Of a stretch of DNA of 64,000 nucleotides, positions 53,801 to 64,000 are shown in pieces. Origin of the DNA: Paralichthys olivaceus (lineage: Eukaryota; Chordata; Actinopteri; Pleuronectiformes; Paralichthyidae); the NCBI RefSeq assembly GCF_024713975.1, contig NC_091112.1:330001-394000 (forward strand). Reading direction: 5' to 3'. Numbering within the stretch: the stretch's first letter is position 1; every line of letters begins with the position of its first letter. Position numbers and translations under genes: made by a program. A model generated the notes under the pieces. It did not search any database. It saw nothing but the letters and a program-made list of their open reading frames with translations, and was not told the origin of the DNA.

Positions 53801-56800
53801 AATGGTGTCGAGAGAATTCATCCATGGAGCCGAACTTCTTGGTGTTAAAGGAGAACTTTGGTTTTTTTCAACCTGGTCCTTATTTCCAGCATATGGTGTT
53901 TAGATCTACTCACCCATAAAGGTTTGGAGTAACTTTGAGTCCTTCGGATGCTTTTAGATCCACACGCGATCAGCGTATATCCATACAACGCAAGGGTTCG
54001 GGGCATCCACAATACAGCCTCTAAATAACGCATTATCTGCCGTGAAACTCTTTATTTACTATGAATCTCCAGAACTAGTCCCCTGTGAGTCTCGCCAGCC
54101 TCGGAGCTAGCGTTAGCTTAGCGAACCGAGAGCGAGTTGTCTTCCTGTTTAATCAACAAATGGGTTCGCTAAGCTAACGCTAGCTCCGAGGCTGCTCGTT
54201 AGCCCGTTGAAGTTAGCTAGCCTTTAACCGGGTGAATGGCCCGAGCACCAGGACACAGCTGCTTTAAAAGAATCCTGTACTGTGAAGCACCTGATAAGCA
54301 TTCTGCCATGTTGCGCAAAACTAGCATCAGCAAACTCTGTGTAAACAAACACAGTTGATCGTCAGCTGTGATGCGGCTGCGCACCTCAGTGACGTCACCC
54401 CAGTGAAAGCCCAGGATGCAAACAAAGCAACTCGCTAAGCTAACGTTAGCTCCGAGGCTGGCGAGACTCACAGGGGACTAGTGCTGGAGAATCATAGTAA
54501 ATAAAGAGTTTCGCGGCTGATCCAAAGTTACTCCAAACCTTTATGGGTGAGTAGATCTACACAACATATGCTGGAAATAAGGACCAGGTTGAAAAAAACC
54601 AAACTTCTCCTTTAAGCCTGCAGGTGGCGCCCAAGGTTGATAGTTTTCTCAACTCACTTTGGGTCTTTAATGGATCACGGTCTGAATGTCACAGTTCCTA
54701 GTAAAGTGTCATATAAACAGGATATATTTGTTTCTGTGTTGCAGTGAAAATGAGGCTCTGTGGAGGGAGGTGGCCAGTCTGAGACAGAAACACACTCAGC
54801 AACAGAAAGTCGTCAACAAGGTATTTCTCCTCACGTCAGCTCGGATGCTTCCACCACAGTGAGGCTGATCTAATGATAACTCTCTCTCCTCAGTTGATCC
54901 AGTTTCTGGTGTCACTCATCCAAACCAACAGGATCTTGGGAGTCAAGAGGAAGATGCAAGTTCACTACTAATACTACACACTTTGCTATGAACTAGCTGA
55001 GATGTTTTTACCTGTCTAATCCATACACACATGATGGGGAGGGGGGAGGGGTCTCAACAAAACACTATTCCTGTGGTCACCAGCAACTCACCCACCTACG
55101 TCCAGTGACTGTTGAGAAAACCTGATTTATAACGTTAACAAGTTTCTCTCTGCAGTCCTCTGATGCTGAATGACTCCAGCTCCGCCCACTCCATGCCTAA
55201 GTACAGTCGGCAGTTCTCATTGGAGCACATGCAGGTAACATGTCGCCGACTCACCTGCATACCTCAGTTAGTTTGTGATGAGCGGTTCACATGAAGGATC
55301 TTTTCTCGTGCACTTCCTCTTCAGGCTACAGCCAATCTGTTCTCAGCTGACTCCCCAATATCCTCTGGGCCAATCATCTCTGACATCACAGAGGTGGCCA
55401 CACCCATCATTGAGGATGCAGTCCCTGACTGGTCGGACGCAGGGTGAGAACTAATGAAGCCTCTTGTCAGTAACAGTGGTGCAGCAGTCACTTAATTCTG
55501 TCCTCTGCCTCCAGAGAGAGCCAATTCATTAACATAAAAGAGGAGCCAGCAAGTCCTGAGGTGGAGGTGTGTCCTGTTCTGGAAGGCGGGGCTACACATG
55601 GAGACACGCCCCTCTCCCCCACCACTTTCATCAACTCCATCCTACAAGACAACGAGACGCAGCCGACTCCCAACACCTCCACCGCCAACCCTTCACCAGG
55701 TACTAGCTGACAGGAAGTCTGGTTCTCAAAGGTTCCATGTGTTTGGTTCTGCTCTTGAATCTGTTTGTCTCTGACCTGAGACTCTTCTGTCTCTTCTGCA
55801 GGCATCGTTCTGATGAGCCCGGCCTCCTCTGGGACCCTCCCACCTTCACCAACCGGCCAATTACCCGCCTCTATTCCCACCCCAAACTCCAGTCCAGCCG
55901 CAGCTCAGCATCAATGTCAGACCCTCGCCTGTATCGACAGGTACGTTTCCAATCAGTGCTTTTGTCATATGGTGCAGGTGCTACGTGTTACTAACTGCCC
56001 CACTCCAGCCACTAGCTGCCCTGACTCCCGCTCCGACACCTGCCCCATCACCTGCCCCATCACCTGCCCCATCACCTGCCCCATCACCTGCCCGTCACTG
56101 CTCTTGTTTTATTCGTGTATCAGTTTATTGTGTATTTGTACCTTTGCTGTAGGTTGTTGAAGGTCAGGTGTGTCATTAACACCCCTGTGCTTCCCTCAGA
56201 CCCCACCCCCCTCCCTCTGCAGGTGGATTGTCACCTGACGTTTGGCGCTTCGTATCAACACAAACTGACAAGTGAATCATTGAATCTATAATTCACAAAT
56301 AAAACATGTTTTGTTTTGAAGTGTGAGTCTGGAAAGCTAGCACCAGTGAATCCTATCAGAGCCTGATCACTATGTGGATTCATCAACCAAAGAAAATAGA
56401 CCCTAGATGCACAGGAACCAACGGGAAGTCAGAAGAGAAGGTCAGAACAGGAAGTCAGTCAGAACAGGAGGTCAGAACAGGAAGTCAGAACAGGAAGTCA
56501 GAAGAGAAGGTCAGAACAGGAAGTCAGAACAGGAAGTCAGTCAGAACAGAAGGTCAGAACAGGAAGTCAGAACAGGAAGTCAGAAGAGAAGGTCAGAACA
56601 GGAAGTCAGAAGAGAAGGTCAGAACAGGAAGTCAGAACAGGAAGTCAGTCAGAACAGAAGGTCAGAACAGGAAGTCAGAACAGGAAGTCAGAAGAGAAGG
56701 TCAGAACAGGAAGTCAGAACAGGAAGTCAGTCAGAAGAGAAGGTCAGAACAGGAAGTCAGAACAGGAAGTCAGAAGAGAAGGTCAGAACAGGAAGTCAGA

Positions 56801-58464
56801 AAAGGAAGTCAGTCAGAACAGGAGGTCAGAACAGGAGGTCAGAACAGGAAGTCAGTCAGAAGAGAAGGTCAGAACAGGAAGTCGGTCAGAACAGGAAGTC
56901 AGTCAGAACAGGAGGTCAGAACAGGAGGTCAGAACAGGAAGTCAGAAAAGGAAGTCAGTCAGAACAGGAAGTCAGAACAGGAGGTCAGAACAGGAAGTCA
57001 GTCAGAAGAGAAGGTCAGAACAGGAAGTCGGTCAGAACAGGAAGTCAGTCAGAACAGGAGGTCAGAACAGGAGGTCAGAACAGGAAGTCCGAACAGGAAG
57101 TCAGTCAGAACAGGAGGTCAGAACAGGAAGTCAGAACAGGAAGTCAGAACAGGAAGTCAGAACAGGAGGTCAGAACAGGAAGTCAGAACAGAAGGTCAGA
57201 ACAGGAAGTCAGTCAGAAGAGAAGGTCAGAACAGGAAGTCGGTCAGAACAGGAAGTCAGTCAGAACAGGAGGTCAGAACAGGAGGTCAGAACAGGAAGTC
57301 AGAACAGGAAGTCCGAACAGGAAGTCAGAACAGACACGATTGCTTTATTAACAAGAGGAAAAACTCCAGACTGTGGAAGCAGCTTCACATCACATCTTTC
57401 TATCTCTCTGTCTCCTCTGTCTGTCTCTCCTCTGTCTCCCCTCTACCTGTCTCTCTCCTCTGTCTGTCTCTCCTCTCTCTCCTGTTTCTCCTCTGTCTGT
57501 CTCTCCTCTACCTGTCTCTCTCCTCTGTCTGTCTCTCCTCTCTCTCCTGTTTCTCCTCTGTCTGTCTCTCCTCTCTCTTCTGTCTCTCCTCTGTTTCTCC
57601 TCTACCTGTCTCTCTCCTCTGTCTGTCTCTCCTCTCTCTCCTGTTTCTCCTCTGTCTGTCTCTCCTCTGTCTCTCTCCTCTGTCTGTCTCTCCTCTCTCC
57701 TGTCTCTCCTCTGTCTGTCTCTCCTCTGTCTCTCTCCTCTGTCTGTCTCTCCTGTCTCTCCTCTGTCTGTCTCTCCTCTGTCTGTCTCTCCTCTCTCCTG
57801 TCTCTCTCCTCTGTCTGTCTGTGTTTCAGGTCTGAACTGTTGGACCATGTGGACACTATGGACAGCAGTCTAGAAAACCTGCAGAACATCCTCAATACAC
57901 AAACCTTCACCTTTGACACCTCCCCCATCATCGAGGTCAGTCGTCAAATTAACATGTTATGAACACGCCAACTCTATGAACATGTTAACAGTATATGAAC
58001 ATGTTAGTGGTATGTGAACGTGTTGAATCACATGTGTGTTTCCATGTTCAGTTTTTCGGTTCACCCTCTGGAGATTTTGACCTTGACTGTTTGGACAATG
58101 TGAGTTCAACAGACTTTTACTTTGCATCTTCACTTCCTGTCTCATGTTGAAATAAAAGCACCATATTAACACAAACACGTTCATACAGGTATGTTTACAT
58201 GTTAGTATACATGTGAATACAAAGGTGAACACATGTTAGTATACATGTGAATACAAAGGTACACACATGTTAGTATACATGTGAATACAAAGGTGAACAC
58301 ATGTTAGTATACATGTGAATACAAAGGTGCACACATGTTAGTGTTTATGATGTCACAGCCGTCTCACTGTGATGTCTCTGTCCTATCAGCTGCTGGCTGA
58401 AGAGGCTCCGAGAGGAAGTGATGGAAGCAGCCACACAGGTAACATACACACACACACTCTCTCA

Positions 58465-58522
<58 letters not shown>

Positions 58523-58526
58523 CTCA

Positions 58527-58565
<39 letters not shown>

Positions 58566-58686
58566 ATACACACGCTCTCTCACTCACACACACACACACA
58601 CACTCTCTCACTCACACACACTCTCTCACAAACACACACACACACACACACTCACTCACACACACACACACACACTCACACACTCA

Positions 58687-58726
<40 letters not shown>

Positions 58727-58955
58727 CACGCACACACTGGGTGACTCTGCTGTTCTGATTGGTCCAGGGAAACAGCTGGTGCAGTACTCTGCCACACCTG
58801 TGTTGATGTCTGAACCAATCAGCCTCGGGGAGGGCGGGGCTGACCTGCCGTCTCTGCTGGAGCTAGAGGCGGAGCCTTTCCTTACGCCCGACCCATCCAC
58901 TGATGACCCGGCAGCCGACCTGTTGAGCCACACCCACTTGGACTCTGACCTTTGA
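50830..58955 (+). CDS. hsf1: Heat shock factor protein 1
   Basis: Fourteen exons: 50830-50946, 52403-52511, 52981-53117, 53259-53383, 54745-54820, 54894-54955, 55156-55234, 55325-55443, 55515-55699, 55802-55940, 57830-57935, 58052-58099, 58390-58438, 58768-58955 (TGA 58953-58955), giving 512 aa (human 529). Master activator of heat-shock genes: trimerises and binds nGAAn repeats in the nucleus. The DNA-binding domain (about 15-121) has [31 protein letters not shown] and [12 protein letters not shown]. Leucine-zipper trimerisation region about 122-205, then G-V-K-R-K. Regulatory I-K-E-E-P-A-S-P (exon 9) matches the phospho-dependent sumoylation motif. HR-C (about 383-405) is followed by an acidic activation tail. 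Exon 6 has a GC donor. The start is set by homology (M-E-F-A-G), with an in-frame ATG 12 nt upstream. Confidence 0.96.
51122..51645. repeat. Triplet-periodic AAC/AAT/AGT repeat in hsf1 intron 1
   Basis: About 520 bp built almost wholly from AAC, AAT, ACT, AGT, GAT and ATC triplets (for example ATAACAACAGTAATA). It is open on both strands only because these triplets and their complements avoid stops in one phase. Not coding. Confidence 0.93.
53120..53195. repeat. Tandem CACCTGTTCACACA units after hsf1 exon 3
   Basis: About five imperfect units of CACCTGTTCACACA begin three bases inside intron 3, right after the GTACGT donor of exon 3. Confidence 0.85.
53845..54615. mobile_element. T2/Kolobok-type non-autonomous DNA transposon in hsf1 intron 4
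   Basis: The element starts TTAAAGGAGAACTTTGG (53845) and ends CCAAACTTCTCCTTTAA (54615). The ends are inverted repeats of at least 80 bp (left TTTTTTTCAACCTGGTCC..TTTCCAGCATATG..AGATCTACTCACCCATAAAGG) and are flanked by TTAA, the target-site duplication of the Kolobok/T2 and piggyBac groups. TTAAAGGRR termini are typical of T2-family MITEs. Inner arms also pair (54060-54130 with 54435-54495), leaving a centre of about 300 bp with no transposase. Confidence 0.85.
56036..56095. repeat. 12-bp tandem repeat after hsf1 exon 10
   Basis: CACCTGCCCCAT is repeated about four times in the first part of intron 10. Confidence 0.9.
56429..57336. repeat. 0.9-kb minisatellite in hsf1 intron 10
   Basis: Thirteen-base units AGAACAGGAAGTC mix with variants (AGAACAGGAGGTC, AGAAGAGAAGGTC) and four-base AGTC insertions over about 900 bp. 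The units contain no stop, so long false frames (487 and 314 codons) run through, encoding [13 protein letters not shown] series. Each main unit carries CAGGAAGT, an ETS-type core. Confidence 0.95.
57395..57828. repeat. CT-rich minisatellite preceding the hsf1 exon 11 acceptor
   Basis: Units such as CTCTCCTCTGTCTGTCTCTC repeat for about 430 bp and stop at GTGTTTCAG, the acceptor for exon 11 (57830). They give the intron an exceptionally long pyrimidine tract. Long open frames on both strands are artefacts. Confidence 0.93.
58195..58340. repeat. 34-bp tandem repeat in hsf1 intron 12
   Basis: GTTAGTATACATGTGAATAC marks unit starts at 58201, 58235, 58269 and 58303, exactly 34 bp apart, with a fifth partial copy at 58337. 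Confidence 0.92.
58443..58736. repeat. Compound (CA)n/CTCT microsatellite in hsf1 intron 13
   Basis: CA runs interrupted by CTCTCTCACT blocks fill nearly the whole intron between exons 13 and 14. Confidence 0.95.
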
Positions 58956-60326
58956 CAACATAAAAATGCGATGACTCATCAGTAACCATGGCAGCAGGAC
59001 AATCTGAGCACTGACTCAGCAGCAATAGACAATGATGTAATCATCAATCAGCTGCAGTTCATCCGGTCAAAGCTCATGTTTTTAGTTTGCAGATGTTATT
59101 GATCGATATTAACCATTTATAGACCTGCGTCCTTCTTCTATGCTTTTATTTTAGCTTTGTTTTTATTTGAGCTTTTTTCAATTATTTGACAGTCACAAAA
59201 AAAACTCAGAGAACCAGGGTCACGTCTGTACCTGCCCGTCCAATGAGAAGCAGCTCTGAGCTCAGTTGATGATGTCACGTGGACAGGTGAGGTAGGATCA
59301 TGTGATCAGGTTGTTCCGTGTTCTGCATGTTTAAGTCAGATTTGATTTGTCTCTGTTTTCATGTATAAGATATAGATTCAATGAGAAGAATCTGTATATT
59401 TTTGGAAAAGTTTATTATGAATGAGAACACCCCCATCACCTCTGTTACCATGGAGACGACATGAAGGCAGATTGATGGATCTGATCGATTAGAGCAGGTA
59501 TCAGCCATGTTGTTGATGATTGATTAAATAGTTGATCAGTGTGCTCTCGTACCGCTCCGTGTCTTTCTGTTGCTTTAGGCTCATGTTGTGTTCAGGGTCA
59601 CCTGCTCTGATTTTATTTTCTGAACCCAGAGAGTGAACCGAGCTGAACAAACTGAATTTGCGTAAACAGTTTTTTCTGAGTGACGAAGCAGAACGACTGA
59701 TTCATGTAGCATTTCGATGGTTGTCCTGCTCAGAATGTAGCGTGGAGGTAAAGTGTCACAGGTCAGAATAAATCACAGAAACCAGTGAAACAGACGACAC
59801 AGACTTGAACAGATGCTCTGTGATCAAGAAGCTGCCCTTCAATATAAAAGCCTCTGTCGTCAATATGTTTATATTTGTTTGATCATGTTTTAACATTTTT
59901 ATATCGATTACATCAAATTCTAGCTGTTGGATTTATTCTTGCTCTTGGGAGAGGAGGATTGTAATAAATTATAAACATTGAAGACAGGGTCAAAGGTCAG
60001 ATCAAGTGTGAAACTGAAAATGATTTCATCAGATCAGTATTACTAATAAAGATCAATTCAAGTTCCTCTTCATTTTGAATTGAAGACAAATTCTCAGTTT
60101 GATGTTCAAAATAGTCAAAAACATTTATTGTGGAAGTTTAAACATTTCAATCCTGACAGTGAAGATGATGTCACATCCTGTATGATGTCATCAAGTCAAG
60201 ATTCCTCCAAAACGTTTGTATTTCTGCTCAGTGATTCTAAAACAAAATAAAAGTCTATAAACAAACTCCACATTTTAAATATTAAAAAAACATGAGACAC
60301 TGCTGCTGAGAGGGCGGCGTCTACAA
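58956..60326. other. hsf1 3' UTR and convergent 3' ends
   Basis: No coding exon. Candidate hsf1 AATAAA signals lie near 59767 and at 59963-59968. On the minus strand AATAAA at 60124-60129 is placed about 200 bp after the stop(s) of the leftward gene, so the two transcripts may end within about 150 bp of one another or overlap. Confidence 0.5.
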
Positions 60327-60455
60327 CTAGTGGGAGGAGTCATGTTTCCTGGGCCATGCTGATTGGTCGGTACACTGGAATCTGTAGCGCAGGAATCGAA
60401 CTCGTGGCTTAATGTGGAAGTCAGCAGGTATCCTCCAGTTCCACATTTTCTGCAC
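60327..60455 (-). other. Terminal exon of the micro-exon gene, frame unresolved
   Basis: All three frames are plausible. Phase 1 continues the chain and stops after about 11 residues (A-E-N-V-E-L-E-D-T-C). Phase 0 gives 42 residues (V-Q-K-M-W-N-W-R-I-P) ending 60327. Phase 2, reached if the previous exon uses the stronger GTAAGG donor four bases later, gives about 59 residues (C-R-K-C-G-T-G-G-Y) ending near 60275. The chain logic favours phase 1. Confidence 0.4.
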
Positions 60456-60903
60456 CTGTGACAGAAAAACAAAGATTAAAGTCAGATTTGACTTTTTACT
60501 CTTTTAAATCAAAGATATCGATTCATGCTCAGGTTGTGACACTCATAGATTACAGCTGTCAATCACACTGTGGTCTCCACCCCCAACACATCCAGTTCTT
60601 TCTGCTCTGTTTGACTCTAAATGATCTTCAGTGATCAACGAACATCAGCTGTTTGAAGAAGACTTGAAACTAGAGACTGAGACAAAAACTTCTGAGGACA
60701 AAGTTTACTGACGTTAGAAAGTGAGAAGAGACATTTTCTCGAGAAACTACCATGTGAGTCGCCCCCTGCTGGTCAGAGAGAGAATACAGGTTTCAGGCAC
60801 TTCCATATCAATCACTACAAAAATCTTCAGCAAGGGACAGATTTGACCTTCCTCCTCTTTTCAAACAGTCAGTCTTCTCTTGTCTGTGTGTCTGTGTGTC
60901 TGT

Positions 60904-60986
<83 letters not shown>

Positions 60987-63582
60987 CGTGTGTGTGTGTG
61001 TCCTTACAAACCTTCAGGACCCTGACCAGATGGGTTGTACTGTTCAGTGACTGAACCTGCAGAGAACAAGCAGAACCAAGAAAAGAGAAATAACGCGCCT
61101 TCAGCACCTGATCTCAGGTCAGATATAAAGCAACAGGACGAGTCTATCAAGACCCTGAATGAGACCTGATCACAGACCACTGATATGCAGCCGGTCTGTG
61201 GTCTTTTTTATTCATGTAAAAACTGAACATCTGTAAAACTTACCAGCCACCTGTGTGTGGTCTGTCACAGCTGGATGACCTGAAACAAACACACACACAC
61301 AAATGAAACACACGTTTCTACAGAAGAAGAACAATCTGAATTCTTCTTCTGTAGAAATAAAAAGGACTTACTGGAGTCAGATGGACTTCCTGTTCCTGTA
61401 GGATCTGCTGAAACTACAAGCACACAACGTGTTTAACAAACTCTGCAGTACCACTCACTGGTGGCTATATGGGGGGGGGGGGGCTCACCTAAGCCTGTAG
61501 AGTCGGTCGCTGCGGTAACCAGGTCTGTGTGGGAGTAAATGCCTGAAAGTGAAAATCGTGTGTGAGACAGGTAAACAGATACTGAGCGGTGGACGATGGG
61601 GTACGACTGTGACATATGGTCATGTGACAGGAAGTGACACCTCACAGGTCAAATAATCTCCTGATGTTCACATGTGGTTGTCATAGCAACAAGTCTTACC
61701 TGTGACATCATGTCCCAGTCCGAGACCTGGGGTCAGACCCAATCAGAAGAGAGTCATGTTTATGTCAGTGAACAAAGCTAATTGATGGTTTATTGATCAG
61801 ATCAGTTCTCACCTGTCAGATCAATGTGACCCGTCACTGACTCTGCTCCACCTGCTGACATCATCATCAGGTTACTGCTAATTAACTCTTAAACAAACCA
61901 GTCGTTCATCAATTAACTGCAGTTTATCTCCAAGTGATCAATAGTCAGACTGTACCTATAAGATCAGTCTGGAGGTCGCTGAGGGAAACTGGTCTGTCAG
62001 TCACTGCATATATACACACATATATATGAAAGTGACACAAACATATATATATGTGTGTGTGTGTGTGTGTGTATAATCACTGATCAGGAGAAATTAAAGT
62101 TTACCTCCGTTTGCATCTGTCAGTTGAGTCTGTCGACCGTTTCCTGAAAGACACGATGGCCTATGATGAGCGTCTGTTAATAAAACACTACGGTGCTGTA
62201 CAGAGAGCAGCCAGCAGGAGGACGTGGTCGTACAGGTGCGTTTACCTGTGTGTTCTCTGTGATCTTCACTGTGTGATGAAGATGATGAGGCTGCGCCAGC
62301 TGACGAAGAAAGAACGTGTGTCAGAGGAAAATCCGTCCTGATTGTCAAAGTAAAAGACGTTTGTATACCAACCTTCCTTGGCAGCAGAGTGGGAGGAGCC
62401 TGAGACAGAGCTAAAAAGGGATTGGTCAGGTCCTGAGCTCAGAGAGGAGTGGTCTAACCCTGATTGGTCGATGCTGACATGAGCTGGATGAACATGATCT
62501 TCAACAGGACGACACCAGAACAGGTGAGTCTCACAGAAACAAACTTTTTTTAATTGAAATTGAAACAGTCATTGGATGATCCCTGATCACCTGACACCTG
62601 TAGGGGGCGGGGTCAGTACCTGTAGATAAATCCAGACCGGAGCTGCTGCTGTGGTCTGCAGACAGAGCAGCTGTCACACCTGAGCTGAACCCTGACACAA
62701 ACAGAAGCAGACAGAGCAATCGTTCGATCAGCCGACCAATGAGAGACTGGGCTTCATCAGGAGGAGGGTCTTAAAGAGACAGGAGCTAAACCCAAGTGTT
62801 TGAGACAGAGGCTGAGGACAGGAGCTGCAGCGATGGACAGTCTGAGGACACTGATTAAAATAATCAACCTGAAGATGAGCAGATGGTTCATTTAACAATC
62901 AGGACATTTCTTTGAGTTGTGTCTCTGTCATTTACTGAAATATAAATATAATCACCGACATAAATTCAAAACACTCAGGAAGTAGGTTGTCTCCTCTGTA
63001 GTTGGTTGCTTAGTTACAGAAAATCCTCTGAAGGAGGAGCAGTGATGGTGAAAAGTCTTAATAAACGATATAATAAACCTGAGAACTTTCTGTAGAAGTG
63101 ACAGAAACACACCTGGGATGTTGACGTGAACTTCTGGACTAAATGAATCTGCTTCACCTGGAACCATAAACATTAGATTTTGTTAAAAAAACTGTGATGC
63201 TTTTATTTTGAAGTAGTTTTTTGACTTCCTCTTCTTTTGTTGTAGATTGAGACACTGAAACACCTGAGGATCACCTGACCTTAAGTCAGGAAACTTACCC
63301 ATCAGGCCGAGCACGAAGTCGTGATTGGACGGGTCGATGATTCCTGAAGAAGAAGAAGACAGATGAGTAAACACAGTTTTTTGTTTACGCAGAATTTGAA
63401 CCAGACGACTGAAGATGATGTCATGACGCTGTTTGTTCTGTGTGCCGCCGATCATCTGAGGGAACCTTCGTTAACCAATAATCAGAAGTGATCAAGACCT
63501 GATGGTGGCAGACAGACCTCACCTGGACACTCACCTGTATAATCCAGGTGAGAAAATCCTCCCCCGAATGAACCCAACACAC

Positions 63583-63625
<43 letters not shown>

Positions 63626-63918
63626 AACTTCTTTCAGTTCGCAGTATCTCTCATGTTTCTCTCTGTAGCTCCACCCCCTGTAGCTCACCTGTCTGGCCAG
63701 CAGCTCCGCCCCCTCCTCCTCCTCCTCCTCCATTCAGCAGCTTCTGTCCGTTTCCTGAATCCGTCACAATAATCAATAATCAGCTCGATCGATTTCTGCA
63801 GAAAAGTTTGTGCTTTGAATGTGACACTTTTATTTTTCAGTTTATCACTGAGTCATTTATCGACATCAATATTTTTACAGATGTTTACCGTTAGACTGCG
63901 AGTCGACTCCGTCAGAAC
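60327..63918 (-). CDS. Unrecognised gene of short phase-1 exons, 3' part (continues past the window)
   Basis: Minus-strand exons: 63918-63889, 63754-63689, 63582-63535, 63343-63299, 63157-63113, 62691-62620, 62498-62373, 62143-62105, 62003-61956, 61851-61813, 61726-61700, 61542-61489, 61407-61372, 61279-61244, 61056-61012 and a last exon from 60455. The first fifteen are all multiples of three (27-126 nt), phase 1 at both ends with good AG and GT sites, and most junction codons give Gly. The translated chain is Gly/Ser/Thr/Asp-rich (for example G-F-S-S-G-V-T-A-A-L-S-A-D-H-S-S-S-S-G) with one poly-Gly stretch, has almost no Cys and no membrane helix. I recognise no domain. A disordered, perhaps secreted or matrix-like protein is a guess. 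The final-exon frame is uncertain. Confidence 0.55.
60889..61000. repeat. (GT)n microsatellite in the last intron of the micro-exon gene
   Basis: About 50 GT units (with TCTGTGTG at one end and GCGTGCG near the other) lie just downstream, in gene orientation, of the donor of exon 61056-61012. Confidence 0.95.
62036..62076. repeat. (AT)n(GT)n microsatellite
   Basis: ATATATATAT passes into about ten GT units between two exons of the micro-exon gene. Confidence 0.9.
63585..63622. repeat. (GA)n microsatellite forming an acceptor tract
   Basis: About 19 GA units lie directly upstream, on the minus strand, of the exon that starts at 63582. As (CT)n it supplies the pyrimidine tract. Confidence 0.9.
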
Positions 63919-64000
63919 CTGCCGACACAAATGTTTCTCGTACATTACCCGATGTGACCCGATGCAATGCTACGCTACAATATATCAAATCACTGAACGT

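Follow-up and report, generated by a model that had tools for sequence, protein, structure and literature searches.

Beside hsf1, the minus strand carries what looks like a complete fish gene made up of some two dozen tiny exons, almost all of them frame-neutral. In the final gene model, an exon chain read by hand in the parent genome (588 Mb, 25 contigs), 24 minus-strand exons encode 398 residues and, once joined, form an open reading frame to the stop. The number of symmetric exons that share one phase in this chain far exceeds that in the controls. Judged from its sequence features, the locus is fairly probably a complete gene, convergent with hsf1 and lacking any second copy that the genome search could detect, for a secreted, disordered, and acidic protein of approximately 400 residues that is rich in Ser, Gly, Thr, and Asp.

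Architecture of the gene

The window, which is the whole stretch of DNA that was analyzed, spans 64 kb (C20:330001-394000) and harbors 17 exons of the chain on its minus strand (63918..60421), namely 16 internal exons and the terminal coding exon. Every internal exon in the window measures 27-126 nt, is divisible by three, and takes phase 1-1. An earlier sequence-only reading had recognized at least 15 minus-strand exons with this size range and divisibility, a count that is borne out by the model, for which the minus strand was inspected directly over 58000-64000 and each exon located in turn. The gene span continues past the window edge (63919..64000, inside intron 7) into the adjoining bases of the parent genome and reaches about 67.6 kb in extended window coordinates, in which the window numbering is carried on beyond position 64000. 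Seven further exons lie in this upstream part (64154 to 67537), for which the same reading had proposed a signal-peptide prediction, and hydropathy points to such a peptide there.

The first intron of the model is in phase 2 and the other 22 of the 23 introns are in phase 1, so that skipping or duplicating any one of exons 3-23 would leave the reading frame intact. Exon skipping may adjust the length of the protein. The GC content is 54% in the exons versus 39% in the introns. The 21 internal exons contain no stop in 341 codons of the model frame, which was picked as open, compared with 13 in 362 and 21 in 341 codons of the other frames.

The 5′ end of the gene is given in extended window coordinates on the minus strand. 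A TATA box (TATAAA, 67601-67596) is located ~60 nt ahead of the ATG in exon 1 (67537-67527), which lies beyond the window and would supply a short 5′ UTR and the start codon. Exon 2 (67199-67135) carries a hydrophobic leader and likely encodes a signal peptide, as judged from hydropathy. It contains a second in-frame ATG, and a start at this position would still leave a leader. Exons 3 (67046-66978) and 4 (65847-65812) are acidic and are followed by the Gly/Ser exons 5 (65523-65473), 6 (64871-64818), and 7 (64213-64154), the last of which is given other borders by the unrestricted search described below.

Inside the window, the minus-strand chain resumes with exon 8 (63889..63918, 30 nt, SDGVDSQSNG), which has weak splice sites and enters the unrestricted chain at a cost of 3 only. 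Exon 9 (63689..63754, 66 nt) encodes a poly-Gly run between a weak acceptor and a strong donor, and exon 10 (63535..63582, 48 nt) is strong at both sites; these two exons as well as exons 11 (63299..63343, 45 nt) and 12 (63113..63157, 45 nt) are also part of the unrestricted chain. For exon 13 (62620..62691, 72 nt), the unrestricted search favors another donor, which gives 62591-62691 (101 nt). The border of exon 14 (62373..62498, 126 nt) is uncertain and exon 15 (62246..62299, 54 nt) is never returned exactly, as the search favors a segment at 62246-62399 that overlaps parts of both. It also favors another acceptor for exon 16 (62105..62143, 39 nt), resulting in 62105-62173 (69 nt, again divisible by three). 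The splice sites of exon 17 (61956..62003, 48 nt) are among the weakest of the chain. Exons 18 (61813..61851, 39 nt), 19 (61700..61726, 27 nt), 20 (61489..61542, 54 nt), and 23 (61012..61056, 45 nt) are shared with the unrestricted chain. Exon 21 (61372..61413, 42 nt) has a weak acceptor; it appears as 61372-61404 at a cost of 3 and is missing at costs of 5 and 7. Exon 22 (61244..61279, 36 nt) is exact at a cost of 3 and stretched to 61348 at costs of 5 and 7. The terminal coding exon 24 (60421..60455, 35 nt) follows a strong acceptor and encodes AENVELEDTC and the TGA stop, and an AATAAA poly(A) signal (60124..60129) is found ~290 nt past the stop. TATA box, ATG, hydrophobic N-terminus, stop, and AATAAA thus follow each other in the correct order.

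Splice sites were scored with vertebrate-average weight matrices that are not fitted to this species. The sequence-only reading had called the sites good, which holds for some exons such as exon 10 and fails for others, with an acceptor score below zero in 6 of the 21 internal exons (8, 9, 14, 17, 18, and 21). The final model omits a 15-nt candidate (60765-60751) on account of its weak donor, and a possible exon near 66077 was excluded by eye because its exit is not in phase 1. Inspection of six longer introns among the 23 revealed several open pieces and no convincing extra exon; three further introns (191-604 nt) were covered or left aside.

Comparison of the exon chain with chance

The sequence-only reading had picked its exons partly by phase and had cautioned that a few of them could be false. 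For this reason, a dynamic-programming search for exon chains was run that is informed solely by the scores of splice sites, by open frames, and by the consistency of phase from exon to exon, with no particular phase imposed. The best chain of this unrestricted search contains 16 of 19 exons in phase 1-1 at a cost of 5, 14 of 22 at a cost of 3, and 15 of 17 at a cost of 7, and the claim of one phase throughout is upheld. Borders identical to those of the 21 symmetric internal exons of the model are returned in 12, 14, and 12 cases at costs of 5, 3, and 7, respectively. At a cost of 3, exons 3-5 keep their borders but are assigned phase 0-0, as an exon this short frequently has several open frames. 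The caution remains justified for some borders, with competing ones at exons 7, 13, 14/15, 16, and 21 or 22, and for exon 17, which occurs in no unrestricted chain. An earlier run on the window part only, with a stricter polypyrimidine matrix and score floors, gave 9 exons at a cost of 7, 7 of them in phase 1-1.

The number of symmetric exons sharing a phase separates the target from everything it was compared with. The same unrestricted search finds at most 9 such exons per chain elsewhere in 70 kb (35 segments) and at most 7 in 80 control segments, which overlap and derive from two strands and two offsets at a single site per contig in 20 contigs. Among 100 dinucleotide-shuffled versions of the target, the maximum is 6 and the mean 2.3. 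The total chain score by itself does not single out the target (117.2), as the bop1 region reaches 108.8 with 21 exons, 5 of which are of one symmetric phase; scores do not exceed 64.5 in the 80 control segments and 44.3 in the shuffles. When a phase is forced at a cost of 5, the target scores 113.5 in phase 1 versus 72.1 in phase 0 and 77.5 in phase 2, and the best of 105 other tests scores 52.6.

Junction glycines and relatedness of the modules

The sequence-only reading had noted that most residues at the exon junctions are Gly. This is correct in number, as the junction codon is Gly at 15 of the 22 phase-1 borders, and it provides no independent evidence for a Gly repeat. At these borders, G closes the exon in 21 cases and follows as the next base in 16, and the splice consensus AG|G spells Gly when it is split in phase 1. 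Junction Gly is therefore largely a by-product of the splice consensus. Outside of the junctions, exons 3-23 encode 18% Ser, 13% Gly, 9% Ala, and 9% Asp. A collagen Gly-X-Y pattern is absent from the model on inspection. Exon duplication was rejected as the origin of the chain because the peptides encoded by exons 5-23 resemble each other no more than their shuffled versions do: their mean similarity is 13.3 versus 13.2 after shuffling (reached by 80 of 200 shuffles), and the maximum of 30 is reached by 62 of 200 shuffles.

The predicted protein

The product is predicted to be secreted, disordered, and acidic. The N-terminus is hydrophobic, with a KD-19 maximum of 2.3 at residue 6, and the KD-19 value stays at or below 0.84 in every window that begins after residue 30. 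A hydrophobic leader that is not followed by a membrane-spanning stretch makes secretion likely, without a membrane anchor. Residues 25-398 have a calculated mass of 36.9 kDa, a pI of 4.16, and a GRAVY of -0.48. Across residues 21-398, 58 D+E face 9 K+R, Ser+Thr amount to 24%, and there are nine Ser-Gly dipeptides, some of them close to acidic residues. The model contains 15.8% Gly, 4.8% His, 2.9% Pro, 1.3% Lys, and 0.3% Met, and Tyr is present. N-glycosylation sites, Trp, and RGD are absent from the model protein. It contains two S-x-E sites, a number that does not indicate heavy phosphorylation of the Fam20C type. The low-complexity character proposed in the sequence-only reading is supported.

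On this basis, a division of labor along the chain can be proposed. Exons 3-4 encode a strongly acidic segment (net charge -17 across residues 23-60) that would act as a calcium-binding N-terminus. Exons 5-23 would form a chain of low-complexity modules of 9-42 residues, the Ser/Thr body of which may be glycosylated or phosphorylated. Exon 24 would provide a C-terminal tail, and the sole Cys, which is the last residue of the protein, perhaps dimerizes it.

Relatives and genomic neighborhood

The sequence-only reading matched the chain to no family, and searches with the joined translation agree. The Pfam profile search returned a single row (E 6.3) and nothing above the cut-off. The PDB sequence search gave ten rows with E values of 0.51 and up, the best in the Gly/Ala-rich part, and these are probably chance matches. 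In a whole-genome search with the model, each of the 16 matches (E up to 10) falls inside the gene's own span, and consequently no paralogue was detected by this search, which works exon by exon and could let a diverged gene copy composed of micro-exons escape. One of the 16 matches contains a stop, having overrun its exon. A search of viral contigs with six peptide patterns yielded 53 stretches that matched a pattern, and 189 stretches were obtained from bacterial and archaeal genomes; none was confirmed as a relative in either set, as expected of a fish gene. Five model peptides had no match in the open literature, and titles and abstract openings do not name the gene among the best open-literature matches listed. 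The gene may well be labeled "uncharacterized protein" in fish annotation.

The position next to hsf1, also part of the sequence-only reading, is confirmed by an HSF DNA-binding domain on the plus strand, which places the two genes in convergent orientation. This domain was identified in a Pfam scan of nine neighborhood frames, one of which had no match. On the minus strand, the scan additionally located BOP1NT, LDL-receptor A, and CUB domains; a C2 domain is encoded on the plus strand, and past the window edge there is an mRNA cap methyltransferase domain. The gene with the LDL-receptor A and CUB domains is presumably lrp12-like, and we take the C2-domain gene to be rims-like and the methyltransferase gene to be rnmt-like.

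Just upstream of the promoter (extended window ~67960-69530), ~1.5 kb consists by eye mostly of purines of the GAGGAG type, with two copies of a ~110-nt segment that carries AATAAA. In the hsf1 region, a 13-bp tandem repeat of ~65 copies (56420-57333) gives rise to long open frames on the plus strand (502 and 520 codons), which are probably repeat artefacts. The same region holds, at 57395-57820 and 58442-58737, a TCTCC-type minisatellite and 148 copies of an AC repeat. Exactly 5000 N (extended window 75001-80000) mark a possible assembly gap.

Alternative explanations and significance

Going by its composition, the product most likely belongs to the extracellular matrix or is associated with mineral. 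It is conceivable, though tentative, that it represents an undescribed secreted fish matrix or biomineral family that is unrelated to SCPPs and elastin and in which the one-phase micro-exon chain evolved independently; the number of modules would then be changeable by splicing or by exon gain and loss. A small secreted mucin or a glycosaminoglycan-bearing proteoglycan core of the epidermis, gut, or egg surface is an unlikely alternative, in which the Ser/Thr modules would be glycan scaffolds and their number would be set by the exons. The Ser+Thr share of 24%, the nine Ser-Gly dipeptides, and the leader without a later membrane-spanning stretch would suit such a protein, but Pro reaches just 2.9%, there is a single Cys, and fixed-unit tandem repeats are lacking in exons 5-23, where shuffling attains the observed mean similarity in 80 of 200 cases. 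That the array arose by chance from splice-like sites or is a decayed pseudogene is scarcely credible: the tiny exons and several weak splice sites speak for it, but same-phase symmetric exons lie far above control segments and shuffles, both gene ends are plausible, and the 24 joined exons remain open to the stop.

Membership in known groups of acidic secreted proteins is improbable to different degrees. An acidic otolith or tooth protein of the Starmaker, Starmaker-like, or OMM-64 kind is a doubtful candidate, which shares secretion, acidity, disorder, and size (36.9 kDa and pI 4.16 here, 39.65 kDa and pI 3.81 for medaka Stm-l in PMC4260845). As the same paper describes stm and stm-l as highly similar in genomic structure and without obvious sequence similarity, sequence alone does not decide against kinship (PMC4260845). 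The composition speaks against it, since Stm-l is portrayed there as clearly poor in Gly and His and devoid of Tyr and Cys (PMC4260845), and the present protein has 15.8% Gly and 4.8% His. An SCPP-type gene would suit the likely exon-2 signal peptide, the small one-phase exons, and the acidic disordered composition and is nevertheless highly improbable, given that SCPP introns are virtually all in phase 0 according to PMC6732285, compared with 22 of 23 in phase 1 here, and that there are no Pfam match, no RGD, and just two S-x-E sites.

If the exons of the favored secreted-protein gene are expressed, the locus would offer a small natural experiment on whether selection keeps intron phase uniform to permit the gain, loss, and skipping of modules in disordered secreted proteins, and a phase-1 counterpart to the phase-0 logic of SCPPs. 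Its location beside hsf1 should make it simple to locate in further fish genomes. Should it prove to be no more than an annotated uncharacterized gene with one constant isoform, it would be an ordinary case.

Comparison with known systems

On paper, the gene works like the elastin, SCPP, and Starmaker-like genes, and it could be assigned to none of them. Secreted epidermal proteins of the suprabasin/dermokine type combine a signal peptide with a Gly/Ser-rich disordered body, a likeness by description to the model, which itself lacks any Pfam match. Tropoelastin is a secreted low-complexity protein encoded by many small one-phase exons with a split Gly codon at their borders, and small one-phase exons with Gly at the borders are also found in this gene. 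Elastin carries hydrophobic and Lys/Ala cross-linking modules, whereas inspection of the present protein reveals neither VPG-type hydrophobic nor Lys/Ala cross-link modules and it is acidic and Ser-rich. Elastin membership was rejected on composition (Lys 1.3%, Pro 2.9%) and for want of a Pfam match above the cut-off.

Genes of the SCPP/SIBLING family, such as AMBN, encode the signal peptide in exon 2 and continue with small exons that are frame-neutral, and their proteins bear clusters of S-x-E phosphorylation sites or RGD. A likely exon-2 signal peptide, frame-neutral small exons, and a predicted secreted product recur in the present gene, but the intron phase differs (virtually always phase 0 there, according to PMC6732285, and phase 1 in 22 of 23 introns here), and membership was rejected on this rule together with the two S-x-E sites and the absent RGD. 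Starmaker-like membership was likewise rejected on the composition profile: PMC4260845 describes an abundance of D, E, K, S, and Met in Stm-l, and the present protein is rich in Gly and His, poor in Lys and Met, and contains Tyr and one Cys. Stm-l is, in that account, a secreted, acidic, and disordered fish protein of similar size to this one, but its reverse in Gly, His, Lys, and Met (PMC4260845).
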